A DNA stretch of 64,000 bases from Ignavibacteriales bacterium (GTDB lineage: Bacteria > Bacteroidota > Ignavibacteria > UBA10030), in assembly GCA_026390575.1 (NCBI GenBank), contig JAPLFR010000015.1, positions 295,101 through 359,100 on the forward strand, given 5' to 3'. The notes beneath the pieces were generated by a model. The model did not search any database and was not told the DNA's origin. It saw nothing but the letters and a program-made list of their open reading frames with translations. This document shows positions 7,358 through 49,080 of this stretch, one piece after another (within the stretch, counting starts at the first letter, position 1; every line of letters starts with the position of its first letter). The translations under genes and the position numbers were made by a program.

Positions 7358-8192
7358 GTATCTTTTCACTGTTCTTCTTGCTCTCACGGCGATCGGTTGT
7401 TCCAAGAATGAACCGGATAAAACACCTGTCGCCAGCATCGACAAGCAAACGCTGGCCTTAGAAGAAATCCGTGCACATATTGATACAACGCGTGAGCCAT
7501 CGCAAGCACAAATTCAGCAGTACATACAACGGTGGCTCACAGAAGAATCGCTGTATCGTGAGGCGATAGATCGCGGTCTCGATCGTACGGAGGAGATGAA
7601 TCAAAAAGTAGAGGATGTGCGGAGACAATTGGCAATCAATGCACTCTTAGAGAAAGAAGTGTACTCCCAGCAGACATCGAATTTTACTATGCAGGATGTT
7701 CGTCAATATTATGACGCACATAGTAAAGAATTTAACGTTATGCACGACATGGCATTAGTCAGCTTTGCACTTTTTAAGAACCGAGATGCTGCAACACAAT
7801 TTCGCAATCTTGTGCTGAAAGGAACGCAATGGAATTCTGCAATCAATCAACATGCGCAATCGGTCGTACTGCGTGTAGATTCATCGTACCGGACTGAAGC
7901 AACGCTGATACCGGCAGAGTTATGGCGCGTCGCATCAAAATCGACAAACCGCGAGCTTTCGTTTCCCATAAGCACTGATAATGGTTATTATATTATTGTT
8001 GTATGGAAATTTATCAAGCAAGGACAGACAGCAGATGTACCATTCGTAGAACAAGAAATCCGCGGACGGCTGACTGTAGAACGGCGGCGGCAGATGTATG
8101 ATCAACTCGTTCAGAACCTTCGCTCAAAACATGCAATTCAAGTATTTATCAACTTGGCATCCGATTCAGGAAAGGCAAAAACAGAAGAATAG
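7344..8192 (+). CDS. SurA-like periplasmic chaperone lipoprotein, degenerate rotamase
   Basis: 282 aa; start TTG at 7344, overlapping the previous gene by 14 bases, with AAAGGAAA just before it. The lipobox TAIGC gives a lipid-anchored protein (cysteine 19). Residues 40-130 are helical and resemble the SurA N-terminal chaperone region. A parvulin-like segment follows (DVRQYYDAHSKEFNVMHD and later ELSFPISTDNGYYIIVVWKF), but the usual GGDLGW core is not recognisable, so isomerase activity is doubtful and a pure chaperone role is more likely. Position between two clear PPIase genes supports a joint envelope-folding function. Confidence 0.78.
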   Translation: MNPNKYLFTVLLALTAIGCSKNEPDKTPVASIDKQTLALEEIRAHIDTTREPSQAQIQQYIQRWLTEESLYREAIDRGLDRTEEMNQKVEDVRRQLAINALLEKEVYSQQTSNFTMQDVRQYYDAHSKEFNVMHDMALVSFALFKNRDAATQFRNLVLKGTQWNSAINQHAQSVVLRVDSSYRTEATLIPAELWRVASKSTNRELSFPISTDNGYYIIVVWKFIKQGQTADVPFVEQEIRGRLTVERRRQMYDQLVQNLRSKHAIQVFINLASDSGKAKTEE

Positions 8193-8200
8193 GAAAACGT

Positions 8201-9475
8201 ATGAAGCAAGTTTGCAAATTCTTAGTGTCTCTTTCTCTCCTGATTCCTGCTATTCTGCCGGCTCAAACACTGGTCGATCGGATTGTAGCGGTTGTAGACA
8301 AAGAGATTATTACCGAATCGGAGTTGAACGAGCGCGTTACATTCCTTGCAGTGCAAAATCGTATGGATCCGAACCAACCCGGGTTGCGCATGCAAGTGCT
8401 CGAAGGATTGGTTTCAGATAAACTCGTTCTTGCCCAAGCGTTGATTGATAGTATCGAAGTGACAGAAGACGAAGTAACGCGTGCGCTTGATCAGCAGATA
8501 GCAAACTTCGTCCGGCAGGTTGGGTCCGAACAGCGTGTAGAGCAGATGTACGGGAAATCCATCGCCCGCATAAAACGTGAGTATCGAACCGAAATTAAAA
8601 ACCAGCTTCTGGTACAGAAGATTCGCCAGCAGCGCGAAGCCGCATTATCGGTAACGCCCCGCGAAGTAGAAGATTTTTTTGTATCGTTTAAAGATAGTTT
8701 ACCGCAGGTTCCGGAAGAATTCGAATTGAGCCATATTTACATTGTACCGAAACCTGACACGGCGGTAGAAGCAAAAACGCGGCAGGTTATGCAATCTATT
8801 CTTGACAGTATAAAAGCAGGCGGAGATTTTGCAGACTTTGCTAAACGATATTCAACGGACCCGGGTTCTGCCGCGAGCGGCGGCGACCTCGGCTGGGAAA
8901 AACGCGGAGTATTTGTTCGTGAATTTGAAGAAACTGCGTTTGCGATGAAGGAAGGCGATGTTTCGCGCATTGTGAAAACCCAATTTGGGTTTCACATCAT
9001 CCAATTGCTCGGCAGGCGCGGTGAATCGGTACATGCACGCCATATTCTTATGAAGATCGATAAGGGGCCCGCAAGTGATTCTGCGGCAGTCGACACACTA
9101 CGGGCTGTTCGGCAGCAAGCGCTCAATGGCAAATCATTTGCAGAATTAGCGAGCAAATATTCTGAGGATGAGGACACGAAAACCATCGGCGGCGATTTAG
9201 GTACACTGACCGCTGACCAGCTCCAACCGGATTTTGCCGGACAAATTAAAGAAATGAATGCAGGAGAAATCAGTGAACCGCTTCGTACGGTGGTAGGATC
9301 CTCGTACGGCTTCCATATTGTTTGGATGCGTAAACGAACGGCACCGCATGCGATTAATTTGCAGGACGACTTCAAGCGCATCCAACAGCTGGCGCTCTAC
9401 ATGAAGCGCAATAAACAAAATGCAGAATGGATCGATGAACTGAAGAAAACTATTTATGTCGATATCCGTCTCTGA
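8201..9475 (+). CDS. surA: SurA-type periplasmic chaperone/peptidyl-prolyl isomerase
   Basis: 424 aa, near the usual SurA length. A cleavable signal peptide (LLIPAILPAQ) precedes the SurA N-terminal signature LVDRIVAVVDKEIITESEL. Two parvulin domains follow: ELSHIYIVPK with the SGGDLGWEKRG core, and VHARHILMKI with TIGGDLGTL. A short C-terminal helix completes the SurA layout. It acts in the periplasm on unfolded outer-membrane proteins. It follows the preceding lipoprotein gene by 8 bases and is the last of the three folding genes. This is the copy that best fits true SurA; the symbol is by similarity only. Confidence 0.88.
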   Translation: MKQVCKFLVSLSLLIPAILPAQTLVDRIVAVVDKEIITESELNERVTFLAVQNRMDPNQPGLRMQVLEGLVSDKLVLAQALIDSIEVTEDEVTRALDQQIANFVRQVGSEQRVEQMYGKSIARIKREYRTEIKNQLLVQKIRQQREAALSVTPREVEDFFVSFKDSLPQVPEEFELSHIYIVPKPDTAVEAKTRQVMQSILDSIKAGGDFADFAKRYSTDPGSAASGGDLGWEKRGVFVREFEETAFAMKEGDVSRIVKTQFGFHIIQLLGRRGESVHARHILMKIDKGPASDSAAVDTLRAVRQQALNGKSFAELASKYSEDEDTKTIGGDLGTLTADQLQPDFAGQIKEMNAGEISEPLRTVVGSSYGFHIVWMRKRTAPHAINLQDDFKRIQQLALYMKRNKQNAEWIDELKKTIYVDIRL

Positions 9476-9513
9476 TCTGCAGTGCACATACAATAGGAAA
9501 TAGTGGTGAACAT

Positions 9514-10518
9514 GTGGCAACGAAAATAAAACCAGCTGACGATGTTGGATCTATCAAACGGCTCACAAAGGCGTACGCAGACCTGCGGACAGAAATCGGC
9601 AAAGTGATTGTCGGTCAAGACACAATCATTGAGCATCTCTTTATCACACTCCTCTCTCGCGGGCATTGCCTGCTCATCGGCGTACCGGGGTTAGCGAAAA
9701 CACTTCTCATTAAAACGTTGGCACAGGCGCTGGAATTAAAATTCAGCCGTATTCAATTCACACCCGATTTAATGCCGAGCGATATAACCGGGACGGAAAT
9801 TATTGAAGAGAATGTTTCCACCAGGACAAAGGCATTTAAATTTATCCATGGACCGGTGTTTGCAAACATTATTCTTGCCGATGAAATCAACCGCACACCG
9901 CCAAAGACACAAGCCGCTCTGTTAGAAGCAATGCAGGAACATCACGTAACGGCTGCCGGAGAAATGTACGTGCTGGATGAACCGTTTTTCGTTCTCGCCA
10001 CGCAAAATCCGATTGAACAAGAAGGAACGTACCCGTTGCCTGAAGCCCAGCTCGATCGGTTTATGCTCAATCTCTGGCTGGACTATCCGTCGTTTGCGGA
10101 AGAAGTTCAAATTGTTAAAACGACAACAAGCAGATATGATGCGTCGGTAGATCACGTTCTTTCTGCCGGCGATATCGTTGAGTTTCAAAATCTTGTGCGC
10201 GGTGTGCCGGTTGCAGACAACGTCATTCAATTTGCCGTTCGGTTAGCAGACCGCACGCGGCCATCCTCGTCAGAGGCACCTGCATACATTAAAAATTGGA
10301 TTCGATGGGGTGCCGGTCCGCGCGCATCGCAATATTTAATTCTTGGCGCTAAATCGCGCGCAATTCTTCATGGACGTTTCACACCAGACATCGAAGATGT
10401 CAAAGCGATTGCCGGACCCGTGCTGCGTCATCGTCTTGTGACAAGTTTCAATGCAGAGGCAGAAGGTGTTTCGGCAATCCAGATTGTAGAAAAATTAGTT
10501 CAAGATGCAAAGTCTTAA
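9514..10518 (+). CDS. MoxR family AAA+ ATPase
   Basis: 334 aa. Walker A GVPGLAKT is at residues 56-63, Walker B IILADE near 119-124, followed by INRTPPKTQAALLEAMQEH and the sensor region ATQNPIEQEGTYPLPEAQLDRF, all diagnostic of MoxR. These are cytoplasmic chaperone-like ATPases that work with VWA-domain proteins. Start is GTG at 9514; the overlapping ATG at 9512 closes after five codons. A VWA membrane protein lies at 14814, separated by two protease genes; the DUF58 gene that often joins MoxR and VWA is not present. Substrate unknown. Confidence 0.92.
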   Translation: MATKIKPADDVGSIKRLTKAYADLRTEIGKVIVGQDTIIEHLFITLLSRGHCLLIGVPGLAKTLLIKTLAQALELKFSRIQFTPDLMPSDITGTEIIEENVSTRTKAFKFIHGPVFANIILADEINRTPPKTQAALLEAMQEHHVTAAGEMYVLDEPFFVLATQNPIEQEGTYPLPEAQLDRFMLNLWLDYPSFAEEVQIVKTTTSRYDASVDHVLSAGDIVEFQNLVRGVPVADNVIQFAVRLADRTRPSSSEAPAYIKNWIRWGAGPRASQYLILGAKSRAILHGRFTPDIEDVKAIAGPVLRHRLVTSFNAEAEGVSAIQIVEKLVQDAKS

Positions 10519-30128: not shown

Positions 30129-30588
30129 TTAAATAATGGATTATGTGAAAAGAGCCCGCTACGGAATTTGAATGTTACTTCTGTTATAGTACATATTTTT
30201 ACCAGTTGAACAAGCTTTGTCGAAGTGAATGTCATTTAAAAAAGATCTGCAATCTTAGATGCAAGAAAACAAACATATTGCCAACAAGGAATTATTTTGA
30301 CAGATCAAGAGTAATTATGAAAAGGCGTTAATATTTTCGGAAAACATTTTATCGATTTTAATAATGAGTATACTGAAGGTGAAACATTCGGAAGAATTTA
30401 TTCCACCTAAACGACTTCTTGTCAATGTTGTGGGATCCGAGATACAGATTTGCAAGCCAGATTCAAACGATAACCGAGCAACATAGAAATATATTTACCA
30501 GTAGTATATGTTGCTATTATTCCATATATACATATTATAATCAGCAGTGATCATCCAAAAATTATTGTATTTATCGAAATTATATCTC
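30129..30588. other. AT-rich intergenic region with possible gene relic
   Basis: About 460 bases without a clear gene. A 40-codon frame at 30364-30486 begins MSILKVKHSEEFIPPKR; the FIPPKRL stretch is faintly reminiscent of the start of some class I methyltransferases, but the rest does not continue like one and no ribosome binding site precedes it. The promoter of the GH30 gene should lie near the right end, which is very AT-rich (around 30500-30545). Confidence 0.35.
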
Positions 30589-32025
30589 ATGAAAACGAAC
30601 TCCAGATATGTATTGCAATCTCTTTATTTTTTCTTGAGTATAACAACGTTGCTCTCTTGCAGTGCAGATTCTAGTAATTCTGTGAAAAACAACCCTCCCC
30701 CCGCCTCATCGACAGAATTCTGGCTCACCAATCCGGATAAATCCGTATTGTTTCAAAAACAAAATGATGGCCAAACCATCACCGCGAGTACTTTTGCAAC
30801 TATCGAAGTGGATGAAACCCAGACATTTCAAACGGTCGAAGGCTTCGGATGTGCGCTTACCGGTGGAAGTGCAACCCTTCTTCACCACATGGACGATGCC
30901 TCAAGAGATGCGTTGTTGAGGGAGTTATTTGCGACTGATGGCAACAACATCGGTATTAGTTACCTGCGTATCAGCATTGGCGCTTCAGATCTCAGCGATC
31001 ATGTTTTTTCTTATAACGATCTTTCCACCGGACAAACCGATACAACAATGGCGCATTTCAGCCTTGATCCTGAACGCACCGATCTAATTCCGGTGTTGAA
31101 GCAGATTCTCGCGATCAATCCCGACATCAAAATTCTTGGATCACCGTGGTCGGCACCAACATGGATGAAGACGAATAACAATTCCATCGGCGGAAGTCTG
31201 AAGCCGCAATATTACAGCGCCTATGCTCAGTATTTTGTAAAATATATTCAGGGAATGAAAGCAGAAGGAATTCGGATCGATGCGATTACAATTCAGAATG
31301 AGCCGCTCTACGGGGGAAACAATCCCAGTATGCTTATGTCGGCGGCAGAGCAAGCGACGTTCATCAAAAATAATCTAGGTCCTGCATTCGCGGCAAACAC
31401 TATCGATACAAAAATTATCATCTATGATCACAATGCCGATCGTACGGATTACCCAATCGCAATCCTGAACGATCTTAATGCGAGAAAATATGTGGATGGC
31501 TCGGCATTTCATTTGTATGGAGGAAGCATTACGGATCTTTCCACGGTGCATAACGCGCACCCTGACAAAAATCTATATTTCACCGAACAATGGATCGGCG
31601 CCCCCGGCAACTTTGCCAGTAACCTGAGTTGGCACATCAAAACGTTGACGATCGGTGGAACACGCAACTGGTGCCGCACTGTGCTGGAGTGGAATCTCGC
31701 ATCCGATTTAAATCTGCAGCCACATACGAATGGCGGGTGTACGCAATGTCTTGGTGCGATCACCATCGTCGGCAGTGCCGTTATTCGCAATCCTGCGTAT
31801 TACATTATTGCTCACGCATCAAAATTTGTCCGTCCGGGTTCCGTACGAATTGCTTCGACAATTCCGGATGGATTACAGAACGTTGCATTCAAAACTCCAG
31901 AAGGGAAAAATGTTCTGATCGTTTTGAACGACAACCAAATTCCTCAGGCGTTTAAGATCCTCACAGGCACTAAAACAATAACCTCGTACTTATCCGGCGG
32001 AGCGGTAGGAACGTACGTGTGGTAG
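30589..32025 (+). CDS. Glycoside hydrolase family 30 lipoprotein
   Basis: About 478 aa from ATG 30589. The lipobox LLSC puts a lipidated cysteine at residue 24. The GH30 catalytic barrel shows FQTVEGFGCALTGGSA, SPWSAPTWMKTN, the acid/base Glu238 in ITIQNEP and the nucleophile Glu333 in LYFTEQWIG. A C-terminal beta domain (NVAFKTPEGKNVLIVLND) closes the sequence, as in the family. Characterised relatives are glucosylceramidases, beta-1,6-glucanases and xylanases; the exact substrate cannot be read here. It starts a 8-kb cluster of four glycosidases. Confidence 0.92.
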   Translation: MKTNSRYVLQSLYFFLSITTLLSCSADSSNSVKNNPPPASSTEFWLTNPDKSVLFQKQNDGQTITASTFATIEVDETQTFQTVEGFGCALTGGSATLLHHMDDASRDALLRELFATDGNNIGISYLRISIGASDLSDHVFSYNDLSTGQTDTTMAHFSLDPERTDLIPVLKQILAINPDIKILGSPWSAPTWMKTNNNSIGGSLKPQYYSAYAQYFVKYIQGMKAEGIRIDAITIQNEPLYGGNNPSMLMSAAEQATFIKNNLGPAFAANTIDTKIIIYDHNADRTDYPIAILNDLNARKYVDGSAFHLYGGSITDLSTVHNAHPDKNLYFTEQWIGAPGNFASNLSWHIKTLTIGGTRNWCRTVLEWNLASDLNLQPHTNGGCTQCLGAITIVGSAVIRNPAYYIIAHASKFVRPGSVRIASTIPDGLQNVAFKTPEGKNVLIVLNDNQIPQAFKILTGTKTITSYLSGGAVGTYVW

Positions 32026-32564
32026 ATTTTTAGCCACTTGCAAAAAAAATCTGATTCAGAATAGCAGGACAGGTAGTAGTTCTTTTTGTCCAAAGTGTTA
32101 AAGTCAAAAAGTATTTCTGAAGTGTTATTGTGAACAAGCTGAGTACACACTCAGAATATTGCTTATTAAACTATCAATTTTGTATAACGTCAATTGCCAT
32201 ACCTCTCAATACCGTATCCCAACCCGGAACTTAACAAGAGTGTCATTATAAAGATCGGGATCAGCGATGCCGGTTCTTTCCATCCTATGAGGATTGCAAC
32301 TGGAAGTATTGTTAAAAAGGAAATGAAGATTCATTTAAGGATACTATTTATTTCGTGTATTACAGTGGATATAAAAAAACCATTGACGACTCACATTGTG
32401 AAGGCAGAGATTCTCATCCCAAATAAAATTTTTGAGAATCATTGGAGTGGTACTATTAATAGTGGATATTGTTCATTATTTAAATAATTATCTCGATTAT
32501 CGGGAATAATTCTTATACTAGGTCTGGAACATATTCTTACAGCCCAAAACGAATCGTCTTTTAA
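32026..32564. other. Intergenic region with a doubtful 97-codon frame
   Basis: A TTG-started frame (32194-32487) opens with YLSIPYPNPELNKSV, which recalls the PNPF start of a T9SS sorting domain, but the remaining residues lack the expected GxYxxRL end. There is no good ribosome binding site. It may be a decayed sorting-domain tail of a lost exported protein. I see no RNA gene or strong terminator here. Confidence 0.35.
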
Positions 32565-33119
32565 ATGCGAAGCCATATATTAATAAATGATGAGGAATTG
32601 TTTCAACGCATCAAGAGTAATGATGCGCAGGCGTTAAAAATTCTATTCGAAAGACATTATTCTGCATTATGTCACTTCGCGTGCAAATTTGTTAAGAATG
32701 CAACTCTTGCTGAAGAAGCTGTTTCGGATGTGTTTCTCAATATATGGCTCAAGAAGGAAAAGATTGAATTATCAACCAACCTGAAAATGTACCTGTACAC
32801 TGCAGTGAAGAACCAATCGTTAAACTATCTCAAGAAAAACAAAATTCATTTAGAGGGCATCGAAACTGTCGTTAAGGAAAATATAACATCCGATTTGCGT
32901 GCAGACAAATTCATTGTCTACGAAGAATCGAAAAATGCCATTGACAATTTACTTCAACAACTGCCGGAGAAAAGACGAATTATTTTCAGTATGAATCGCT
33001 TCGATGGTTTGAGCTATAAAGAAATTGCAGAGATTCTCTCAATTTCCATCCATACCGTACAAAACCAAATGGTAGCTGCCGTCAAATTTTTAATAGATCA
33101 AAAACCGCGTTATCAATAA
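32565..33119 (+). CDS. ECF-type RNA polymerase sigma-70 factor
   Basis: 184 aa. Region 2 is seen in LKILFERHYSALCHFACKFV and AEEAVSDVFLNIWLKKE, and region 4 with its helix-turn-helix in FDGLSYKEIAEILSISIHTVQNQM. This matches the Bacteroidota extracytoplasmic-function sigma family that usually controls TonB-receptor/polysaccharide loci together with a FecR anti-sigma factor. No FecR gene follows, and no SusC/SusD pair is nearby. It probably directs transcription of the flanking glycoside hydrolase genes; that link is inferred from position only. Confidence 0.92.
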   Translation: MRSHILINDEELFQRIKSNDAQALKILFERHYSALCHFACKFVKNATLAEEAVSDVFLNIWLKKEKIELSTNLKMYLYTAVKNQSLNYLKKNKIHLEGIETVVKENITSDLRADKFIVYEESKNAIDNLLQQLPEKRRIIFSMNRFDGLSYKEIAEILSISIHTVQNQMVAAVKFLIDQKPRYQ

Positions 33120-33489
33120 CCGCACATCAAGCTCATGCTATCATTGCTTTAATAATGTACTCTTCGACAGCTTCTGATAAAATGATTCTGAATGAAACAG
33201 ATGTTGTTCTCTCTAAAAGTAGCCTGGTACTTCACGGGAAATATGATTTTCTATTTCATGCGGTCCGTTTGGAAACAAAAAAAGACAAAGAGTGCGTACA
33301 ATGATACAATACGCTGAAATATATATGAGGTAAAGGTATCGCTCATTATATTGGGGGGACATTGAAATTTTCGAGTGATTAAAAGAGGTGGATAATTAGA
33401 CCCATGAAATATGGTTTTATTGGCAAGATCTTTGTTTATTACGGTGCGAAAAATGCCTTTCATCTCTCATTCTCAAACGTGGAGCTGTG
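33120..33489. other. Intergenic region
   Basis: About 370 bases between the sigma factor and the first GH5 gene. No ORF with coding character, no FecR remnant and no hairpin of note. A possible target of the ECF sigma factor would be expected near its right end, but no consensus is known for comparison. Confidence 0.4.
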
Positions 33490-34578
33490 ATGAAGAAAAA
33501 TATTCTAATTCTATCTATGATCACTGCATTGATGCTTTCGATCAACATTGCCGGTGCGCAACACGACAAGAAGCAAAAGAATCTATTTGATTGGATCAAT
33601 AATTCTGATCCGGAACATCAACCTGTCAACAATCCGAATGCAAAAAAACTCCCTCTGATAAAAGTAAAAGGGAACAAATTTGTCAATTCTCTGGGAGATA
33701 CCATGCTCTTTCGAGGAGTGGCAATTGCCGATCCGGATAAGATCGAACAGGAGGGACAGTGGAATAAAAATTTGTTTGTTAAGGCAAAAGAGTTCGGGGC
33801 AACACTGATTCGTCTTCCCGTCCATCCTGTTTCATGGCGTATGCGCACACCTGTAAAATATCTTCAACTTCTTGACCAGGCGGTTGCTTGGAGCACGGAA
33901 CTTGGAATGTATGTCATCATCGATTGGCATTGTATCGGCAACCTCGGGATGGAATTGTTCCAAAATCCGGAATACATCACCACGCGTCAGGAGACCTACG
34001 AATTTTGGCGCACCATCGCCCTGCATTTCAAAGGCAATAACACGGTAGCATTCTACGAACTGTTCAATGAACCGACACTCTTTCATGGACAGCTCGGCAG
34101 TATGTCGTGGAGTGAATGGAAAAAGATCAATGAGAATATGATTCACCTTATTCGCGCCTATGACGATGAACGGATTCCGCTCGTTGCTGGTTTTGATTGG
34201 GCGTATGATCTTACACCGCTTCATATAGAACCCATCGACGCAGAGGGTATTGGATATGTCACACATCCGTATCCCTATAAAAGAAGTAAGCCGTACGTTC
34301 CAAAATGGGAAGAGGATTTTGGATTTGCAGCAGAACGTTATCCGGTGATTGCGACAGAATTTAGCTTCGGCCTTGGCAATCTTGGTATCGCCGATAATGG
34401 TGAATATGGGAAAGAAATTATTTTTTATCTCGAAGGCAAAGGAATGAGCTGGGTGTGCTGGGTCTTTGATCCGTTGTGGACGCCAAATTTATTGCAATCG
34501 TGGGATACATTCAAGTTGACCGAAAGCGGAAAATTTTTCGAGCAGGCACTTTCTAAAAATATCGAGGCGAAGAAATAA
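33490..34578 (+). CDS. Glycoside hydrolase family 5, exported
   Basis: About 362 aa from ATG 33490 with a signal peptide ending AGAQ. The GH5 barrel shows the acid/base Glu194 in LFNEP and the nucleophile Glu290 in VIATEFSFG, plus RLPVHPVSW, IIDWHCIG and HPYPYKR motifs. Members hydrolyse beta-1,4 links in cellulose, mannan or related glucans; the subfamily is not assigned. It ends 2 bases before the GH2 gene, so the two are co-transcribed. Confidence 0.9.
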   Translation: MKKNILILSMITALMLSINIAGAQHDKKQKNLFDWINNSDPEHQPVNNPNAKKLPLIKVKGNKFVNSLGDTMLFRGVAIADPDKIEQEGQWNKNLFVKAKEFGATLIRLPVHPVSWRMRTPVKYLQLLDQAVAWSTELGMYVIIDWHCIGNLGMELFQNPEYITTRQETYEFWRTIALHFKGNNTVAFYELFNEPTLFHGQLGSMSWSEWKKINENMIHLIRAYDDERIPLVAGFDWAYDLTPLHIEPIDAEGIGYVTHPYPYKRSKPYVPKWEEDFGFAAERYPVIATEFSFGLGNLGIADNGEYGKEIIFYLEGKGMSWVCWVFDPLWTPNLLQSWDTFKLTESGKFFEQALSKNIEAKK

Positions 34579-34580
34579 AA

Positions 34581-37526
34581 ATGTTTCTTGAGCTTTGCAA
34601 AAATTGTTTTTCGCACCTCCTTCACTTTTCATTGAAATGCATGTTCATAGTTCTCATTTCAACGCTTTCGTTTCTTATGGCGCAGCAGAAATCTGTTCCA
34701 TCGAATGCAGGAGGAGTACGCGACCGGCTGCTCATGGATTTTGGATGGCGATTCGCGTTTGGACATGCATATGATGTCAAGAAAGACTTCAATTATAATA
34801 CCGGATATTTTTCTTATGTCACAAAAACAGGTTTTGGAGATGGAGCAGCGGCGAGGGGTTTTGACGATCGTGCATGGCGATTGCTGAATCTTCCGCACGA
34901 TTGGGCCGTGGAACTTCCCTTCGATGCAAAAGCAAGTTCCAGCCATGGATTCAAAACGGTTGGTCGTAATTATCCGGAGACAAGTATCGGTTGGTATCGA
35001 AAAACGTTTTCCATCCCGGCATCTGACCTTGGGAAACGGATCGGTATCGAATTTGATGGAGTTTATCGTAACTCCGTGGTGTGGCTCAATGGATTCTATC
35101 TGGGCGAGGAACATAGCGGATATAACGGATTTCGGTATGATATTACCGACTATGTGAACTATGGCGGTGAAAATGTCGTTGCAGTGCGCGTTGATGCAAC
35201 GATGGAAGAAGGATGGTTTTATGAAGGAGCGGGAATCTATCGTCACGTCTGGTTGGAAAAAACAGCTCCGCTCCACATAGCACCGCATGGTATTTTTGTA
35301 TCGTCGGAGGTTAAAAAATATTCTGCCGAGATAACAGCCCGTGCATTGATCACAAATGATGGATCCCAAAAAGCACAATGTACTATAGAGCAGATTATTG
35401 TAGATAACAACGGTTCAGCCATAGTGCATGGAACGAAGAAACATATTGTTGCAGGACCCGGCGAGACAAACGAATATTCAACCCTCATCCAACTTCCACA
35501 TCCTCATTTGTGGTCGATTGAGACACCGTATCTTTACTCGCTTATTACTTCTGTGTATTCAGCAGATTCTCTTGTTGACCAATGCAAGACAATATTTGGT
35601 GTGCGCACGCTTCGGTTTGACTCGAAGGAAGGTTTTTTCTTAAATGGGAAACATATTCTCCTGAAAGGCACGAATAACCATCAGGATCATGCCGGAGTGG
35701 GTACTGCAATCCCAGATGCACTTCAGGAGTTTCGTATCAAGCGGTTGAAGGAGATGGGAGCGAACGCGTACCGCTGTTCTCACAACCCCCCGACACCTGA
35801 ACTTTTAGATGCATGCGACCGGCTCGGTATGCTGGTCATCGATGAGAATCGTTTGATGGGAACAAACGCTGAGCATCTCGATCTGTTGAAACGAATGATT
35901 ATGCGAGATAGAAATCATCCAAGTGTGTTTATCTGGTCAATCGGAAATGAAGAATGGGCTATTGAAGGGAATACAACCGGTGCGCGCATTGCTTCTACGA
36001 TGCAAGCGTTTGTACGGAAGATCGATCCGACACGCCGCGTCACGTATGCACACAGCGGTTGGGGAGAACACGGCATCTCCACCGTCCAGGATGTTATGGG
36101 ATTCAATTACATTTTTAATGGGGATATTGACAAGCAACATGAACGCTTTCCTCATCAGCCGAGCATGGGTACGGAGGAAACGACATCAAGAAGTACACGA
36201 GGAGTGTATATTGATGATTCACTGCATGCACATTTAGCGCCTGTTGATAGAAAGCCACCGGGGCATGGTGTTGAAGAAGGACTAAAATTCTATGCCGCGC
36301 GTCCTTTTCTCTCTGGATTGTTTTTCTGGACGGGTTTTGATTACCGCGGTGAACCTCATCCATACGGATGGCCTCAGGTGAGTTCGCAGTCTGGTATTCT
36401 TGATCTTTGCGGTTTTCCGAAAGACATGTTTTACTTTCTCAAATCATGGTGGACAGACGAACCGGTGCTGCACATTGTTCCTCATTGGAATTGGAATGGG
36501 AAAGAAGGAGATACGATACAAGTCTGGGCATATAGCAGTTGTGAAGAAGTGGAACTCTTTCTCAATGCAAGAAGTTTGGGACGCAAGCTCATGCAGAAGA
36601 ACTCCCACCTTGAATGGCCGGTTGTTTACGAACCGGGAATCCTTCGTGCACGGGGATATAAGAACGGGAAAGATGTTGTTACAGATCAAATCGCCACAAC
36701 AAAAGAACCGGCACAAATCAAAATGAACCCTGATCGTTCGACGGTGAAAGCTGATGGCGAAGATATTTCCGTTGTTACGATACAAGTGAATGATTCAGAA
36801 GGACGAATAGTACCGACAGCATGCAATGAGATACTCTTTCAACTCTCCGGGCCGGGACGGATTATCGGTGCCGGTAATGGTGATCCATCTTCTCATGAGC
36901 CTGATACATACGTTGAACATGTTTTTCAGATTCCCATTGCAGATCTCAAAGCAAAAACTATCGATAAAAAGGATCACTATGGAGAAACAGATTGGGAATG
37001 CAACGATTCCGCTTGGGCGTCGGCTTTGGGTGAGCAGGGTGAATATAATATACAAGCAGTTGACTCAATGAAAGCTGTTATTATTCGCGGGAATTTCTTG
37101 CTGAAGACAGTCACAGATGAAACCACGATTTCACTCTGGCCGAAAAGTCTTGGCGAAGAACAATCCATATATTTGAACGGTCATCTCGTTGCGAAGAATA
37201 TGAAACGTGATGATCTAGTGCAGGAATATAAACTCGATCATGCAATACTGCGCAATGGGAAAAATATCTATGCTGCCGTTGCGGTTCCATTGAAAAAAAG
37301 ATTTCAGTACGACAACCTGAATACCGATCCCGGAATTATTCAAGTTTCTCAGCCGCCGCAAGCATGGAAGCGTAAAGTCTTTAATGGTTTGGCACAGGTG
37401 ATTGTGCAGTCGACAAAAGAAGCCGGTGAAATTGTTATGACAGCTTCATCCGACGGTTTATCGCAAGGCGATCTGAGAATTCAAACTCACCGTGTGGAGT
37501 GTCGTCCGGCAGTACCTGCCAAATGA
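34581..37526 (+). CDS. Glycoside hydrolase family 2 (beta-galactosidase-like)
   Basis: 981 aa. Signal peptide near the N-terminus (FIVLISTLSFLMAQQ). Domains in order: sugar-binding jellyroll (RDRLLMDFGWRFAFGHA, GWYRKTFSIP), Ig-like domain, TIM barrel with RLKEMGANAYRCSHNPPTPE, acid/base Glu457 in SIGNEEW and nucleophile Glu532 in GTEET, then DUF4982-like and Ig-like C-terminal domains (about 640-800), and an unusual extra domain (about 800-981) with a jellyroll-like carbohydrate-binding look. Most such GH2 enzymes act on beta-galactosides or related glycosides; some are mannosidases or glucuronidases. Lies within the glycosidase cluster. Confidence 0.9.
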   Translation: MFLELCKNCFSHLLHFSLKCMFIVLISTLSFLMAQQKSVPSNAGGVRDRLLMDFGWRFAFGHAYDVKKDFNYNTGYFSYVTKTGFGDGAAARGFDDRAWRLLNLPHDWAVELPFDAKASSSHGFKTVGRNYPETSIGWYRKTFSIPASDLGKRIGIEFDGVYRNSVVWLNGFYLGEEHSGYNGFRYDITDYVNYGGENVVAVRVDATMEEGWFYEGAGIYRHVWLEKTAPLHIAPHGIFVSSEVKKYSAEITARALITNDGSQKAQCTIEQIIVDNNGSAIVHGTKKHIVAGPGETNEYSTLIQLPHPHLWSIETPYLYSLITSVYSADSLVDQCKTIFGVRTLRFDSKEGFFLNGKHILLKGTNNHQDHAGVGTAIPDALQEFRIKRLKEMGANAYRCSHNPPTPELLDACDRLGMLVIDENRLMGTNAEHLDLLKRMIMRDRNHPSVFIWSIGNEEWAIEGNTTGARIASTMQAFVRKIDPTRRVTYAHSGWGEHGISTVQDVMGFNYIFNGDIDKQHERFPHQPSMGTEETTSRSTRGVYIDDSLHAHLAPVDRKPPGHGVEEGLKFYAARPFLSGLFFWTGFDYRGEPHPYGWPQVSSQSGILDLCGFPKDMFYFLKSWWTDEPVLHIVPHWNWNGKEGDTIQVWAYSSCEEVELFLNARSLGRKLMQKNSHLEWPVVYEPGILRARGYKNGKDVVTDQIATTKEPAQIKMNPDRSTVKADGEDISVVTIQVNDSEGRIVPTACNEILFQLSGPGRIIGAGNGDPSSHEPDTYVEHVFQIPIADLKAKTIDKKDHYGETDWECNDSAWASALGEQGEYNIQAVDSMKAVIIRGNFLLKTVTDETTISLWPKSLGEEQSIYLNGHLVAKNMKRDDLVQEYKLDHAILRNGKNIYAAVAVPLKKRFQYDNLNTDPGIIQVSQPPQAWKRKVFNGLAQVIVQSTKEAGEIVMTASSDGLSQGDLRIQTHRVECRPAVPAK

Positions 37527-37595
37527 GCCAAGAGATGGATAATGAAAGATCGTGCGATAGTAATTTCGCAACATGAACAAGTAAATGAATGATCA

Positions 37596-38654
37596 ATGAG
37601 AGTTCGTTGCATGAACGATAGTGCAAGCATGATATCACTGTTTATGATGGTGGCGGTGATGAGCTTTTATTCGAAAGCGCAAGATGTTGTTACGCTGCAA
37701 ACCGATAAAGGAAAACAAACGGTCGTCGATTATTTTGGTGTCGTTCATGTTAAAGGAAATAGGATTGTCGATAAAAATGATAATCCTGTTGCACTTCATG
37801 GGATGAGTTTGTTCTGGAGTCAATGGGGAGGCCGGTTCTACAATGCAGATTGTATTCGGTGGCTGCGGGATGATTGGAAGTGTACAATTCTAAGAGCCGT
37901 CTGCGGTATTCAATCAGATGGGTACCTTGCGAATCCGGAAAAAGAATTCTCAAAAGTAACAACAGTGATTGATGCATGTATAAACCTCGGGATATATGTC
38001 GTTGTTGATTGGCATGATCATAGCGCGGAAAATCATCTGCAGCAAGCGAAAGGATTTTTCCGCAGAATTGCACAAAAATATGGAAGCGCTCCAAATATTA
38101 TCTACGAAATATATAATGAACCACTCAAAGTATCATGGAATGACGTTGTCAAACCATATGCGGAAGAAGTAATTAAGATTATTCGTCAATATGATTCTGC
38201 TCATCTCATTATTGTGGGATCACCGCATTGGTCGCAGGATGTCGATGTTGCTGCAGATCAGCCGATTATCGACATGAATATTGCCTATGCATTTCATTTT
38301 TATAGCAGCGATCGATGGCACAAACAAAATTTAAGGGACAAGGTGGTAGCTGCATTACAAAAAGGAGCACCGATAGTTATCACTGAATACGGTATAAGTG
38401 AAGCTAATGGAAACGGTACAATCGATACTGCGGAAACAACAAAATGGTTCTCATTTATTGATCAGTATAAGTTAAGCACTTGCAATTGGTCGGTCATAGA
38501 TAAAAACGAGACTTCTGCTGCGTTCGTCCCGGGTGTTCATCCAAATGGATCGTGGGAAAATTCTGACTTGAGTGTTTCCGGGAAAATGATCCGGAGTCGG
38601 ATTCGTAGTCTCAATAATCCGCTTTTCGAAGTCATTCATTCTTTCGCTAAATAA
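37596..38654 (+). CDS. Glycoside hydrolase family 5, endoglucanase-like (GH5_2-like)
   Basis: 352 aa, signal peptide ending YSKAQ (ATG 37611 is an alternative start). The barrel shows HGMSLFWSQWGG, VVVDWHDH, acid/base Glu175 in IYNEP, the nucleophile Glu264 in VITEYG, and the conserved tail WSVIDKNETSAAF, which is characteristic of GH5 subfamily 2 endoglucanases. It therefore most likely cuts beta-1,4-glucan chains. It follows the GH2 gene by 69 bases. Confidence 0.9.
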   Translation: MRVRCMNDSASMISLFMMVAVMSFYSKAQDVVTLQTDKGKQTVVDYFGVVHVKGNRIVDKNDNPVALHGMSLFWSQWGGRFYNADCIRWLRDDWKCTILRAVCGIQSDGYLANPEKEFSKVTTVIDACINLGIYVVVDWHDHSAENHLQQAKGFFRRIAQKYGSAPNIIYEIYNEPLKVSWNDVVKPYAEEVIKIIRQYDSAHLIIVGSPHWSQDVDVAADQPIIDMNIAYAFHFYSSDRWHKQNLRDKVVAALQKGAPIVITEYGISEANGNGTIDTAETTKWFSFIDQYKLSTCNWSVIDKNETSAAFVPGVHPNGSWENSDLSVSGKMIRSRIRSLNNPLFEVIHSFAK

Positions 38655-40055: not shown

Positions 40056-40279
40056 GTTTCAAGCCAGACTATGGCAAAGTTGTTTCGTATATATTCCTTA
40101 TCATCCAGATAAGAAATTGGGGATAATTTTTTTTGTTCTGTGCGTCAAAGAACCGTCTTTTATCTGTTTTACTTATTCATACGTGTATTTTTCTTTTTTG
40201 GCTATCCCGCACAATGCCGTTACCCGCATAATGAGGGGAAACACTTTTTCTTTTAAAAACTTTATTGTATATATCTCTT

Positions 40280-40996
40280 GTGAAACCAAAATCCAAAGTT
40301 ATTGTCGTCTTACCAGCCTATCAGGCCGAAAAAACATTAGAACTCACTGTTCGCGATATTCCGCTCTCTGTCGTCGATGAAATTATTCTCGTCGACGATA
40401 TGAGTAATGATCATACAGTGGAGATCGCACGGAAATTTAATCTCATTATCGAGCAGCACACAAAAAATCTAGGCTATGGTGCAAATCAAAAAACATGCTA
40501 CCAATTAGCCCTTCGTCGAAATGCAGATATCGTTGTTATGCTTCACCCTGATTATCAATATGATCCGAAGCTCATCCCTTATTTTGTCGACTTTATCCAA
40601 AACGGCTATTTCGACGTTATGCTTGGCACTCGCATACGTACAAGAAAGGAATCCTTAGCCGGAGGAATGCCGCGCTATAAGTACTTCTCAAACCGACTCT
40701 TGACACTTTTTGAAAATATCATAACCGGACAAAATCTTTCTGAATGGCATACGGGCATGAGAGCCTACAGCCGTCAAGTATTGGAATCAATCGATTATTT
40801 GAAAAATTCAGATGATTTTGTTTTCGATAGCCAGGTATTATTTCAAATTGTGGAGCACGGTTTTCGCATGGGAGAGATTCCTGTACCTGTTCGGTATTTT
40901 CCAGAAGCTTCCAGCATTAATTTCTTTCGTAGTATGCGATATGGAATCGGAACCGTTGGAACCGCATTAAAATACTTACTCAGAAGAATATTTTAA
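40280..40996 (+). CDS. Family 2 glycosyltransferase
   Basis: About 238 aa from GTG 40280 (TTG 40265 would add five residues). The GT2 fold is read from VIVVLPAYQAEKTLELTV, DEIILVDDMSNDHTVEIA and the metal-binding region VVMLHPDYQYDP; the acceptor loop region has GGMPRYKYFSNRLLTLFENI. This resembles dolichol/undecaprenyl-phosphate sugar transferases (DPM1-like), which transfer a sugar to a lipid carrier. No C-terminal membrane segments. It may supply lipid-linked sugars to the neighbouring membrane transferases. Confidence 0.88.
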   Translation: MKPKSKVIVVLPAYQAEKTLELTVRDIPLSVVDEIILVDDMSNDHTVEIARKFNLIIEQHTKNLGYGANQKTCYQLALRRNADIVVMLHPDYQYDPKLIPYFVDFIQNGYFDVMLGTRIRTRKESLAGGMPRYKYFSNRLLTLFENIITGQNLSEWHTGMRAYSRQVLESIDYLKNSDDFVFDSQVLFQIVEHGFRMGEIPVPVRYFPEASSINFFRSMRYGIGTVGTALKYLLRRIF

Positions 40997-44404: not shown

Positions 44405-44615
44405 ATCGCTTTAGTGTGATAGAAGATATTAAGGTAAATAAAGAAAGTATACAAGTGGGAAGGGAAAAGGTTTCCGCATAGCAATGTTGCCTACCATTGT
44501 CTCTTTTTTTTATCCTTAAGTACATCCCTTCGTCATTTGGAACTATCTCTCCCCGGTATCGTCTATAGAATTGAACTCACTGAGATTCGACAATTTAATA
44601 CAAGGAAAGGCAGCC

Positions 44616-45602
44616 ATGAAAACAACGATACAAATGATATGGTGTCTTGCGATAGTGCTCTTCCTGTCAATAGGTACGATATTGAGTGCAGGCGGAAAAC
44701 TTACGGGTGAGACCCACAAGAAAGAGAAGACAAAAAGCACCGGGTGGATTGGAGTTACGATTCAGGATGTGAATGAAAAAACTGCACAAAAAGCAAAGCT
44801 CGACTCCGCAGAAGGTGTCCTTGTGAAAGACGTTATTAAAGACAGCCCTGCCGATTCAGCTGGTATTCAGGAAGGTGATATTGTGGTAGAGTATAATGGC
44901 AAAAAACTGTTTGACGCAGATGAATTAGTAAAAATAGTTCACCGAACTTTGCCGGGAACGAAAGTTGATATTGTTATTATCCGTGATAGTCAAAAGAAAA
45001 CACTTACATTGACGGTCGGCAGTGAAAAAGTATCAAAACATCAAATGTTCGGGGGTATGCCCAATATACCGGATATGCGCGTATTTTTCGGTAATAATAT
45101 CCTTGGATTGCAGCTTCTTACGCTCAATGAGCAACTCGGCGGGTATTTCGGTGTACCGAATAACGAAGGAGTGTTGGTAGAGAAAGTAGAACGCGAAAGT
45201 ACTGCCGAGAAAGCTGGCTTCAAGGCGGGTGATATTATTATCCGGATTGGTACGAAAACAATAGATGCAGTGGAGAAAGTTCAAAGGGAACTTCGTAAAT
45301 ATGATGAAGGTGATAAAGTAGACTTTGAGGTTATGCGAAAGGGTGTGAAGAAAGTATTAAGCGTCGAAATGGAGGAAGATCAAATTGTTCCCCATAAATT
45401 CTTTTTCCAAAAACCACACATGCGGATGTTCCGGACGGATCCATGCGATGAAGCGGAAATGCATTTGGATATGGATGACCTTCGGCCTCATTTGGATCAA
45501 GTACAAATCGATCTGAGAGAGTCGCTCAAGGACATTAATAAAATACCCTTAAGATTCAGAAATATGAACTGCGGTTGTTATTATCACTGTCTCGATTTGT
45601 AA
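44616..45602 (+). CDS. Exported protein with two PDZ domains and a Cys-rich tail
   Basis: About 328 aa from ATG 44616 (ribosome binding site GGAAAG). Signal peptide LFLSIGTILSAG. Two PDZ domains: one with GWIGVTIQDV, GVLVKDVIKDSPADSAGIQEGD (about 45-130), the other with GVLVEKVERESTAEKAGFKAGD (about 190-265). These match the PDZ repeats of HtrA/DegP proteases, but no trypsin domain is encoded before them. The C-terminus is acidic and ends with a NCGCYYHCLDL tail holding three cysteines. Likely a periplasmic scaffold or adaptor, function unknown. Confidence 0.8.
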   Translation: MKTTIQMIWCLAIVLFLSIGTILSAGGKLTGETHKKEKTKSTGWIGVTIQDVNEKTAQKAKLDSAEGVLVKDVIKDSPADSAGIQEGDIVVEYNGKKLFDADELVKIVHRTLPGTKVDIVIIRDSQKKTLTLTVGSEKVSKHQMFGGMPNIPDMRVFFGNNILGLQLLTLNEQLGGYFGVPNNEGVLVEKVERESTAEKAGFKAGDIIIRIGTKTIDAVEKVQRELRKYDEGDKVDFEVMRKGVKKVLSVEMEEDQIVPHKFFFQKPHMRMFRTDPCDEAEMHLDMDDLRPHLDQVQIDLRESLKDINKIPLRFRNMNCGCYYHCLDL

Positions 45603-45951: not shown

Positions 45952-46188
45952 ATGAATTATTTCTCAAAAGGTGATAGAATGAAATTAAAAATTATTCTGC
46001 TTTTAGGAATCCTTGTAATTCTCTTGCCGGATGCATTGAAAGCACAGTATAATGATCCGGGCTCAATGAGCTTCATTTTTCAATTCTTATTAATCATATT
46101 CGCATTTATTGTCTTTTATTTTCAAAAGATCCGTTTATTTATTGTTCGAGTTTGGAATAAACTTTTTGGGAAAGATATTCCCAAATGA
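45952..46188 (+). CDS. Small membrane protein of unknown function
   Basis: About 78 aa from ATG 45952, preceded by GAGGGGAA at a good distance. It has a signal-like first helix (IILLLGILVILLPDALKAQ) and a second hydrophobic segment (FIFQFLLIIFAFIVFYF), then a short basic tail. The stop codon overlaps the start of the methyltransferase gene (ATGA-type coupling), so it is translationally linked to it. It may help anchor or couple the next protein to the membrane. Confidence 0.65.
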   Translation: MNYFSKGDRMKLKIILLLGILVILLPDALKAQYNDPGSMSFIFQFLLIIFAFIVFYFQKIRLFIVRVWNKLFGKDIPK

Positions 46189-47570
46189 ATGGTCTTAAAA
46201 AAAATCCCGCTTCATTTCGAGACATTGATGGATTTATTTTTGAATTCGAGGGTTCAATCTATCGAGCTATCAACGAGTGTTATATAGCTGCCTACACGAA
46301 AGTAATTTCAAGCGGCTTGTATGAGAAGCTCGTTAAAGAAGAATTGCTTATACCCCATATGGAGGAAAAGGGATTTCCTATTACCATTCCCAATCATCCT
46401 CTCATCATAAAACCGTTTCAAGTAAAACATATAAGCTATCCGTATGAATGGTCGTATGAGCAGTTGAGGGACGCAGCGCTCTCCATATTAAGAATTCAAG
46501 AAATCTCGCTTTCATATGGATTCAGCCTCAAGGATGCTACTCCATTTAATATCCAATTTGTGCATGGAAAACCTCAGCTCATCGATACGTTGTCTTTTTT
46601 TCTTGACGATAAAAATATCTGGGTTGCGTACAAACAGTTTTGTGAAAGTTTCCTTGCCCCTCTAGCGCTAATGGCATTTATAGATCATGATATCGGACGA
46701 ATTGGGCGAGAATATCATAATGGAATGCCGCTTCCTTTGGCAAGCACCATGCTGCCGTGCCGAACATGGCTGAGACCATCCTTGTTTGTTCATCTCCATC
46801 TACATGCCAGGTCTCAAAGATCCGATAAAGCAAACCCCGTTGCAGGGAGTGTCTCAAATCCAGCCAATCAAGCACGATTGATATTCAGTCTTCAAAATGC
46901 CGTCCGTTCGCTTCCGAAGAGTAAATCATTTTTGAATTGGACAAGTTATTACTCTGGCGATTGTGTACATCCTCTCTACCTGAAAAATAAAATTGAAATT
47001 ATGGAAAAAGCATTGGCCGAGATCAAACCGCAGGCAGTAGTTGATGTCGGTTCTAACACAGGGATATTTTCAAAAATTGCATCTGCGCATTCAGAAATAG
47101 TAATCGCACTTGATCGTGATCCTTCTTCGATTGAGTTTTTATACAGTCTGACGAAAAAAGAGAAGATTACCAATCTCATACCCTTAGTAATAGACATTCT
47201 CAATCCTTCACCTTCTCTGGGATGGATGAGTTGTGAAAGGAGTTCGTTCTTAGAGAGAATAAATCCTGATGTCATTCTCATGTTAGGAATTTCCCATCAT
47301 TTATTAGGGCAGGCGAATATTACATTTCCCATGCTCACAGATCTCTGTGCAAAAACCACGAAATATGTATTTTATGAGTTCATTCCAGATACTGATGCTA
47401 AATTTGAAGAACTCTTTCGTTCACGTGTGAATCAATTTAGCTGGTATACCCAGGAAGAATTGTTGAAAGTATTCGCAAATCTATTTACTGTTAAAAACAG
47501 ATGGAAAGTTGAACCGACCGATCGTATGATTTATCTCTTTGAAAAAAAAGATGTCGGTAAAGATGAGTAG
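46185..47570 (+). CDS. Fusion of kinase-like domain and SAM-dependent methyltransferase
   Basis: 461 aa. The C-terminal half is a class I methyltransferase: motif I VDVGSNTGIFSKIA near residue 285, acidic strand end LDRDPSSIEF, and later strands (INPDVILMLGISHHLLG). The N-terminal half shows LKDATPFNIQF (K116, N122) and, after 12 residues, LIDTLSF (D134), resembling the catalytic loop and DFG-like pair of aminoglycoside-phosphotransferase/kinase-fold proteins, with the expected HxD replaced by KD. Related proteins occur in polysaccharide loci (NoeA-like). It overlaps the previous and next genes. Confidence 0.72.
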   Translation: MNGLKKNPASFRDIDGFIFEFEGSIYRAINECYIAAYTKVISSGLYEKLVKEELLIPHMEEKGFPITIPNHPLIIKPFQVKHISYPYEWSYEQLRDAALSILRIQEISLSYGFSLKDATPFNIQFVHGKPQLIDTLSFFLDDKNIWVAYKQFCESFLAPLALMAFIDHDIGRIGREYHNGMPLPLASTMLPCRTWLRPSLFVHLHLHARSQRSDKANPVAGSVSNPANQARLIFSLQNAVRSLPKSKSFLNWTSYYSGDCVHPLYLKNKIEIMEKALAEIKPQAVVDVGSNTGIFSKIASAHSEIVIALDRDPSSIEFLYSLTKKEKITNLIPLVIDILNPSPSLGWMSCERSSFLERINPDVILMLGISHHLLGQANITFPMLTDLCAKTTKYVFYEFIPDTDAKFEELFRSRVNQFSWYTQEELLKVFANLFTVKNRWKVEPTDRMIYLFEKKDVGKDE

Positions 47571-49080
47571 CGCCGGTTTCCTTAAAAAAACACTGCGTTG
47601 GGTATGGCCAAGTCTTTTCGTCATAGTCCTCTCTTGTATCCGAAAAAGTGTTCTTGCATTATTGCCCTTTGAACAGATGCAGGAAGGATTGCTTCTGTAT
47701 GCCGGATACTTATTGTTCATGATCCCGGCAGGCATTCTTCTTTCAAGATTAAAATTGTTCGATGACGAATCAAAAGTAGCGTTGATACTCATCTGTGTTA
47801 CCTATATCTTTTTCGAGTATTCGGCAATATTCGCAACATGGGAACAATTTGCTAAACGATGGGTGATGCTGCATCTGTATAACGCGCAGCATACAATGTT
47901 TATTGTAACAATGGCTTTTTGCACCGTTGGAATGATGTGGGTTCTGGGAATAATGAATCAGAAGGCAAAGAATCTCAAGATCCTGCTCTTTACGACGTTC
48001 GTTCTTTCCGTTGTTCCGTTTATCGATGTACTGCAATCGCCAAAGTATAAATTCGATTCTGATCTATTCGATATTCATCAATCAAATACTGCTGTGAACC
48101 AAACAGCAATTCCGCAACGAATATTTTGGATCATACTCGATGAATATCCAAGCTCATTAGTATTGGATGAAGTATGGGGATATAAAGATACGACATTCCG
48201 GAGCGGACTCGAATCACTTGGGTTTACCGTGTACGACTCATGTATCTCGAATTACAATTATACACCGTTTAGTATTGCAGCAACAACGTATGGTGCGATG
48301 CTGCCAATAAACGGGCACCAAAGTCTCACTGTCCAACAATGGTTCTTATTGGGACAAAGGATAAGACAATCGCCGGTCTTGACCTTCTTTCGAGAGCAAG
48401 GGTACGAAACTCATATTCTCTCATTTACGGGTGCTGCTATTAAAAAATTATTTTATGCGGATCGAGGAGAAATAGTTACATATAGCGGAGAAATTGTTAG
48501 TTCGAGTGCTCTGGGCGCATTGCTTTCCCAATTTGGCAATCAGCATGCCACGTCTCTAGGATTTTATAACTGGGAAATTGTTAACAGGCTGTATGCTTTT
48601 ATGAACCCTAATCCAAAAAATGATCAGCGAATCTTTGTCTATGCTCATTTAATTATGCCTCATGGTCCATATCTGCCATTGGAACAAAAATCCTCCCAGA
48701 ACAAAGAACAGTATTTCGAACTTGAAGATGATCAAGCCTTCTTGTCTCAAGTAAAATATACTGACAGCACCGTCCTCGATTTATTGCATAAGGGTCTCGA
48801 TGGTTTGTCTCCTCATCAAAGGTCGAACACCCTGGTGATACTTCAAGCAGATCATGGGCCGAGATATTTGCAGAAGGGCGGAACAGATCTCCGACGGAGG
48901 TCGTCCTTCGGGATATTGAATGCCGTGCTTTGGCCCAAATATTCAAAGGGAAAGTTCTATAATGGCATGAGTTCTGTGAATACGTTCCGAATATTGTTTC
49001 GTGATTTGTGGGGGATCGATCTCAGCATGGTAAAAGATAGCTCTGCAAATGTATGTCCACTTATTAAAACAGAAGATTGA
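47551..49080 (+). CDS. Membrane alkaline-phosphatase-superfamily protein (sulfatase-like)
   Basis: About 509 aa, start ATG 47551 or 47563, overlapping the previous gene's end. The first ~150 residues hold about four membrane helices. The soluble domain has the superfamily metal-site pattern IFWIILDEYPSS and, much later, LQADHGPRYL, with a likely nucleophile in IAATTYG. This resembles sulfatase/phosphoethanolamine or glycerol-phosphate transferases that modify surface glycans or lipids. Substrate unknown. Overlap with the kinase-like/methyltransferase gene indicates joint action on a surface molecule. Confidence 0.72.
   Translation: MSVKMSSAGFLKKTLRWVWPSLFVIVLSCIRKSVLALLPFEQMQEGLLLYAGYLLFMIPAGILLSRLKLFDDESKVALILICVTYIFFEYSAIFATWEQFAKRWVMLHLYNAQHTMFIVTMAFCTVGMMWVLGIMNQKAKNLKILLFTTFVLSVVPFIDVLQSPKYKFDSDLFDIHQSNTAVNQTAIPQRIFWIILDEYPSSLVLDEVWGYKDTTFRSGLESLGFTVYDSCISNYNYTPFSIAATTYGAMLPINGHQSLTVQQWFLLGQRIRQSPVLTFFREQGYETHILSFTGAAIKKLFYADRGEIVTYSGEIVSSSALGALLSQFGNQHATSLGFYNWEIVNRLYAFMNPNPKNDQRIFVYAHLIMPHGPYLPLEQKSSQNKEQYFELEDDQAFLSQVKYTDSTVLDLLHKGLDGLSPHQRSNTLVILQADHGPRYLQKGGTDLRRRSSFGILNAVLWPKYSKGKFYNGMSSVNTFRILFRDLWGIDLSMVKDSSANVCPLIKTED

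Follow-up and report, generated by a model that had tools for sequence, protein, structure and literature searches.

What chemistry is encoded where a kinase-like domain is fused to a methyltransferase, and the gene for this fusion overlaps those of a small membrane protein and a sulfatase-like enzyme? This question is raised by three overlapping genes, all on the + strand, in a 64,000-nucleotide stretch of DNA from an Ignavibacteriales bacterium (the window; own genome 3.82 Mb). Open reading frame (ORF) reading of the window upheld this arrangement, which had been proposed from the sequence alone (the original prediction), and two of the starts were corrected. The central protein, of 461 amino acids (aa), is almost certainly a member of the NoeA/Lani_1194 kinase-methyltransferase family. 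We lean towards reading the trio as a NoeA/NoeB-type envelope-modification module with WbdD-like methyl-phosphate glycan chemistry, in which the order of the two domains is reversed.

Family identity of the gene trio

The 461-aa protein is encoded at 46185..47570 (+), with a kinase-like region at residues ~10-250 and a methyltransferase at ~262-457. In a tblastn search of plasmids it aligned with Sinorhizobium meliloti NoeA at 29.3% identity over 97%, with both halves covered. This search returned 65 records, comprising 57 from Sinorhizobium, 3 from Rhizobium and one each from Singulisphaera, a deltaproteobacterium, Gemmatirosa, Ensifer and Novosphingobium. The family profile scored the protein at 670 bits (hmmsearch), the window protein being itself a row of that profile. 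Its nearest named relative is encoded in an Ignavibacteriae metagenome-assembled genome (MAG) from a fen, with 77% identity over residues 1-458 (L009), and within its own genome the 461-aa protein, like the third protein of the trio, has one matching place.

Annotated records of S. meliloti give the operon order nodL, a 71-aa hypothetical ORF, noeA and noeB. The three genes of the window and their order are thus found in S. meliloti as well, the unnamed 71-aa ORF included. NoeB, which passed the Pfam Sulfatase model at 40.9 bits, belongs to the alkaline phosphatase (ALP) superfamily, and the 71-aa protein carries AHA-YLDPGTGS; none of the Pfam and NCBIfam models compared with the latter matched it. 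The window trio differs in having no adjoining nodL, in the degenerate motif of its small protein and in its host, whose nearest named relative is the Ignavibacteriae MAG. The unnamed ORF that precedes noeA can be regarded as a likely third part of the module.

Passages of one paper describe a family, Lani_1194/NoeA, that joins a kinase-like domain to a methyltransferase and counts about two thousand homologues, 94% of them fused; Lani_1193 and Lani_1195 are reported as neighbours in 65% and 38% of 816 neighbourhoods, and an ALP fold is predicted for Lani_1195 and NoeB (PMC9758233). The same passages give the traits shared with the present trio, namely a kinase-like domain with a methyltransferase, K72 replaced by R, D166/N171/D184 kept and an ALP-fold neighbour (PMC9758233). 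Accordingly placed in the 461-aa protein are the kinase Asp, Asn and Asp, with Arg replacing the beta-3 Lys, and the window has conserved neighbours, the small-protein and ALP genes, which adjoin it, one of them encoding an ALP fold. Because Lani_1194/NoeA is described in these passages, the statement in the original prediction that no described pathway could be matched fails for the family. NoeA/NoeB and Lani_1194 are both in print, and WbdD is a described kinase and phosphate methyltransferase, which adds a phosphate to an O-antigen sugar and methylates it there. In the passages concerned, WbdD is compared with another family, Lcin_0519, and the text of this paper, the sole one found to name both NoeA and WbdD, contains neither 'phosphate' nor 'H132' (PMC9758233); the literature searches made turned up no interpretation of NoeA along WbdD lines.

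Two further matches touch the name and the reach of the family. Text matches for 'noeA' in PMC2247475 proved to be Medicago noeana. A predicted protein of Mimivirus LCMiAC01 (BFVD A0A481Z196) matches the whole NoeA model with E 1.4e-18 over 478 columns.

The kinase-like half

The N-terminal half had been likened to a phosphotransferase catalytic loop (KDATPFN...ID), with the suggestion that it might be inactive. Residues 1-250, modelled alone with AlphaFold (pLDDT 73.8, pTM 0.77), are predicted to form a two-lobed kinase fold; the whole protein, modelled with five sequences, gave pLDDT 71.7 and pTM 0.61. Every one of the best 50 VIA matches of the residues 1-250 model (Z 11.3-9.9, 186-221 residues) is a kinase or kinase-homology domain, and kinases or kinase-homology domains, such as that of RNase L, also lead the Foldseek results. 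The catalytic motif is present, and conservation among homologues marks Asp117, Asn122 and Asp134 (46533..46586, +; KDATPFN...LID) as its catalytic residues. Together with Arg27, these are invariant in 25/25 and 19/19 homologues, hence 44/44, the most divergent row included.

The HxD histidine is missing from the 461-aa protein, and Arg stands at the usual beta-3 Lys position; in WbdD, the HxD position is occupied by Asp350-Asp351. Since Arg27, Asp117, Asn122 and Asp134 are invariant, the missing histidine alone makes no case for an inactive enzyme. The invariant catalytic residues argue against a dead kinase, leaving the suggested inactivity unsupported.

The methyltransferase half and its likeness to WbdD

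The METHYLTRANSFERASE half of the protein is the predicted methyltransferase half, an assignment borne out by a profile search of 177,635 PDB sequences, in which its best match was WbdD (E 1.5e-6 vs 5.1e-4 for the next protein). The whole family profile likewise found WbdD as its best PDB match (E 1.5e-5). In WbdD, H132, H133 and R203 are essential for phosphate methylation, and the H132A, H133A and R203A variants retain phosphorylation and lose methylation; according to passages of that work, these residues confer the use of a phosphate nucleophile (PMC3482155).

The histidine pair of WbdD from Escherichia coli HS, His132-His133, falls on His371-His372 of the 461-aa protein (47295..47300, +; paired by HMMER local alignment), and Asp82 falls on Asp310, in hhalign and four further alignments. 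Furthermore, His371, His372 and Arg447 (47523..47525, +) were invariant in all 44 sequences checked. Arg447 is a candidate equivalent of WbdD Arg203, the two being paired in hhalign and three MAFFT modes and unaligned in hmmalign. From these residues it appears probable that the 461-aa protein methylates phosphate, which agrees with the combined phosphate and methyl modification that the original prediction had proposed.

The likeness to WbdD of E. coli O9a comprises a kinase with a class I methyltransferase, the best PDB match and the essential His-His pair; in addition, a divergent NoeA homologue holds the place of WbdD after wzm-wzt. The two differ in architecture: in WbdD the methyltransferase comes first, the kinase second and then a coiled coil, whereas the 461-aa protein has the reverse order and no coiled-coil extension. 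NoeA-type loci also have additional ALP and small-protein partners, and the kinase domains show no significant sequence match.

An alternative that we consider unlikely takes the kinase-like half as a pseudokinase serving only to bind nucleotide or acceptor; the other half would then be a conventional O- or N-methyltransferase of sugars, with glycans or lipochitooligosaccharides as its substrates. Such a view can draw on the missing HxD histidine, on the Arg at the usual Lys position, on RNase L kinase-homology domains heading the kinase rows and on NodS, a Nod-factor N-methyltransferase, which ranks first by structure. In passages of PMC9758233, moreover, the ion-pair Glu was not found by earlier authors. 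Against this, the four kinase residues are invariant in every homologue, and the sequence profile clearly favours WbdD.

The ALP-superfamily partner

The third gene encodes a NoeB-type membrane enzyme of the ALP superfamily (47551..49080, +). Its ORF overlaps the 461-aa gene, which ends at 47570, and an ATG start at 47551 or 47563 is more likely than the TTG at 47539. The protein has a Thr at the nucleophile position and the metal-site residues Asp/His/Asp-His, and it passed the Pfam Sulfatase model at 30.6 bits (cut-off 25). Among 25 aligned partner enzymes, the first metal Asp and a later Asp are conserved in 25/25 and a later His in 23/25, while the nucleophile position holds Thr in 23 and Ser in 2, with no Arg at +4 in any. 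Type I (formylglycine) sulfatases have the signature Cys/Ser-x-Pro-x-Arg at the nucleophile. An arylsulfatase or formylglycine sulfatase was ruled out, this signature being absent from the 25 partner enzymes; the superfamily assignment of the 'sulfatase-like' protein thus stands and the sulfatase function does not. Because Thr or Ser holds the nucleophile position and Arg at +4 is never seen, the partner looks like a phosphotransferase or phosphodiesterase, which is probably what it is. ALP phosphotransferases of the LtaS/EptA type are characterised by a membrane domain, a Thr nucleophile and metal-site Asp/His; the Thr, Asp and His columns are conserved among the partner enzymes, but the PDB hits of their profile do not separate sulfatases from phosphotransferases.

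As a separate possibility, the ALP enzyme and the small protein could constitute an independent periplasmic unit that transfers phosphoglycerol or phosphoethanolamine, while NoeA would be a regulator or would produce another modification. The PDB matches of the ALP profile include lipoteichoic acid primase and synthase, Thr predominates at the nucleophile position and some loci have two or three tandem ALP genes, all of which would suit such a unit. It is rendered improbable by the strict small-protein motif, which in 395 genomes turned up nowhere but near NoeA, and by the overlap and order of the genes, kept across phyla.

Three loci (L089, L091, L093) carry three tandem ALP genes behind one NoeA gene, suggesting diversified ALP substrates. 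In a relative of the window (L032, G003:C113) there is a second ALP gene, and a broken remnant of a second NoeA copy, with an internal stop, lies between both ALP copies.

The small membrane protein

The first gene of the trio encodes a protein of 69 aa (45979..46188, +). The ATG at 45979, with AGGTGA just upstream, is more likely the start than 45952, and an ATGA is common to the stop of this gene (46186-46188) and the ATG of the 461-aa gene (46185). No Pfam or NCBIfam model compared with the protein scored above its cut-off, and a literature text match for DPGTGS returned only one paper, unrelated. The protein consists of a signal-peptide-like segment ending in LKAQ, the degenerate motif YNDPGSMS, one transmembrane helix and a basic tail.

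The usual motif of these small proteins is Y-x-DPG, from which the Novosphingobium copy (YLDAASAS) departs further than that of the window. Among 23 extracted small proteins, an AxA-type site directly precedes the motif Tyr in 7, and the motif is followed by one hydrophobic helix and then by a tail with 4 to 9 Lys/Arg; others begin a few residues before the Tyr (for instance M-YLDPGSWS in L036). Because several homologues are without the first helix, the protein is better regarded as having a single transmembrane helix behind a signal-peptide-like segment than as the two-helix protein originally predicted. By the positive-inside rule, these sequences suggest a topology with the Y-x-DPG N-terminus outside and the basic tail inside. 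An adaptor role is tentatively considered for this bitopic protein.

Distribution and linkage

Linkage was surveyed at 45 loci from several phyla, 26 including the window and a further 19. A genome in which the NoeA gene is split between two contigs (G002; L030, L031) was counted as one locus, and the counts include two closely related rhizobia (L014, L034) and three virus-type contigs. L013, a second copy of L014, was left out, as were L001-L009 and L015, which repeat the window or loci covered by longer entries, L038-L043 (repeats of L035 and L037), L045-L056 (pattern hits) and L057-L076, the shorter forms of L077-L095 and L029.

Both partners accompany the NoeA homologue at 39/45 loci, in agreement with the linkage expected from the original prediction. 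The small membrane protein lies near it, that is within ~2 kb, at 42/45; neither G274 nor G537 (L077) has it, and none was found at the split locus. An ALP gene adjoins at 40/45, being absent at G091, G274, G537 and G478 (L080), while L035 stops at a contig end. The gene order varies in places: Smac51 has ALP, NoeA and small protein, and G300 has ALP genes on both sides.

The distribution of NoeA homologues is patchy, with 6/61 relatives and 13/395 genomes of the phylum; with the divergent G274 protein as query, a homologue was found in 20/249 genomes of one family. A contig-level genome scan found one relative, a search of a phage collection for homologues gave no match, and viral contig scans returned three contigs, the same ones each time. 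A degenerate DNA pattern for the small protein (Y-[ILMV]-D-P-G-x-G-x, x mostly Ser or Thr) occurred 12 times in the 395 phylum genomes, against 0 for the reversed pattern used as control. Of these occurrences, 7 are in small membrane proteins with a NoeA homologue nearby; none of the remaining 5 is in a small membrane protein. Chance linkage of the trio was ruled out, the pattern counts being far beyond chance.

Glycan and phage contexts

The divergent G274 homologue (L029 5657-8364) lies directly behind genes for an ABC-2 permease (Wzm) and for an ATPase (Wzt) carrying the carbohydrate-binding domain Wzt_C; in E. coli HS, wbdD likewise comes after wzm and wzt. At G537, the NoeA homologue overlaps, by sequence reading, the end of a putative polysaccharide flippase gene. 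These two divergent homologues are without both partners, yet stand in polysaccharide clusters. In Novosphingobium, the NoeA homologue is near polysaccharide-export and mannose-nucleotide genes, and further loci have a Wzz-like gene or glycosyltransferases nearby.

The module also occurs on virus-type contigs. Zot/M13 pI-like ATPase genes occur on two IMG/VR contigs, L035 (5829-7302) and L036 (2582-5533), that carry the small protein and NoeA, with an ALP gene in L036; both are filamentous-phage-like carriers of the module. On the contig that L037 (trio at 5687-9526) shares with L039, phage tail and tail-fibre genes are immediately upstream of the trio, and downstream of it come genes for an FkbM-like methyltransferase and for a protein weakly matching GtrB-like O-antigen conversion, making a phage surface-conversion cassette possible; the presence of the module on such contigs suggests this use.

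A different target, a protein or a secreted signal such as the rhizobial Nod factor or a host-directed target of Legionella, has been weighed and appears more doubtful than any other reading considered here. In its favour, passages of several papers treat noeA and noeB as host-range nodulation genes or hypothesised Nod-factor modifiers (PMC4053727, PMC9048898, PMC10945364, PMC3899959), and Legionella homologues of NoeA are predicted effectors in passages of PMC9758233. Most loci, as far as the records tell, are apparently not from symbionts or pathogens, and several lie in polysaccharide clusters, one of them behind Wzm/Wzt.

Proposed mechanism and its weighing

For the envelope-modification module favoured here, the kinase half would phosphorylate a membrane-linked glycan or glycolipid in the cytoplasm, on a sugar or on some other headgroup, and the methyltransferase half would then methylate the same phosphate in the manner of WbdD. 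After export, the ALP enzyme may use its Thr to transfer or hydrolyse a phosphodiester on the same molecule at the periplasmic side, and the small protein could keep both enzymes together at one membrane site. A more far-reaching version seems rather unlikely: a distinct envelope system of three parts, in which NoeA makes a methyl-phosphodiester on a membrane-linked carrier or glycan within the cell, the small protein provides the coupling to the outside, the ALP enzyme transfers methyl-phosphoryl groups in the periplasm, bacteria of several phyla and phages carry the set as a surface-conversion cassette and the same chemistry accounts for the nodulation role of noeA/noeB.

Several results weigh against the favoured module with its WbdD-like chemistry. 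When the WbdD tail was shuffled and realigned with MAFFT, the Arg447 column received an Arg in 54/150 and 126/300 trials, and the fuller R-x-[LIVM]-Y pattern (Tyr450, hydrophobic 449) arose in 12/300; because shuffled tails often place Arg there, the Arg203-Arg447 pairing is suggestive only and weak alone. WbdD Tyr16, also needed for methylation, has no counterpart column in these alignments. By structure comparison NodS came first, a methylphosphate capping enzyme was tied (Z 16.8 vs 17.7) and many other methyltransferases came next, so that structure does not discriminate among methyltransferases. The kinase halves of NoeA and WbdD gave no significant match (E 0.3 in hhalign; -2.8 bits in another comparison), and the ALP profile's PDB hits, led by sulfatases (4.2e-7) with lipoteichoic acid primase and synthase lower, are weak and unspecific. 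To our knowledge, no methyl phosphate occurs on S. meliloti Nod factors. The best 50 VIA matches of the whole-protein and residues 1-250 models do not include WbdD, which does not exclude it.

The significance for rhizobia follows from the history of the genes: noeA and noeB, which Ardourel et al. are said to have reported as host-range genes in 1995, have since been without a known reaction, and the WbdD-type His-His pair points to a concrete candidate, the formation of phosphate and then methyl-phosphate on a glycan.

Surroundings of the trio in the window

Upstream of the trio are glycosyltransferase-type genes, a GT2 gene at 40265-40996 and two PMT_2-type genes. Just upstream, 44571-45602 encodes a two-PDZ protein without a recognised protease domain. 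Farther away, a glycoside hydrolase cluster (GH30, GH2, GH5/cellulase) with an ECF sigma factor gene, at 30547-38654, is possibly a glycan-use locus.

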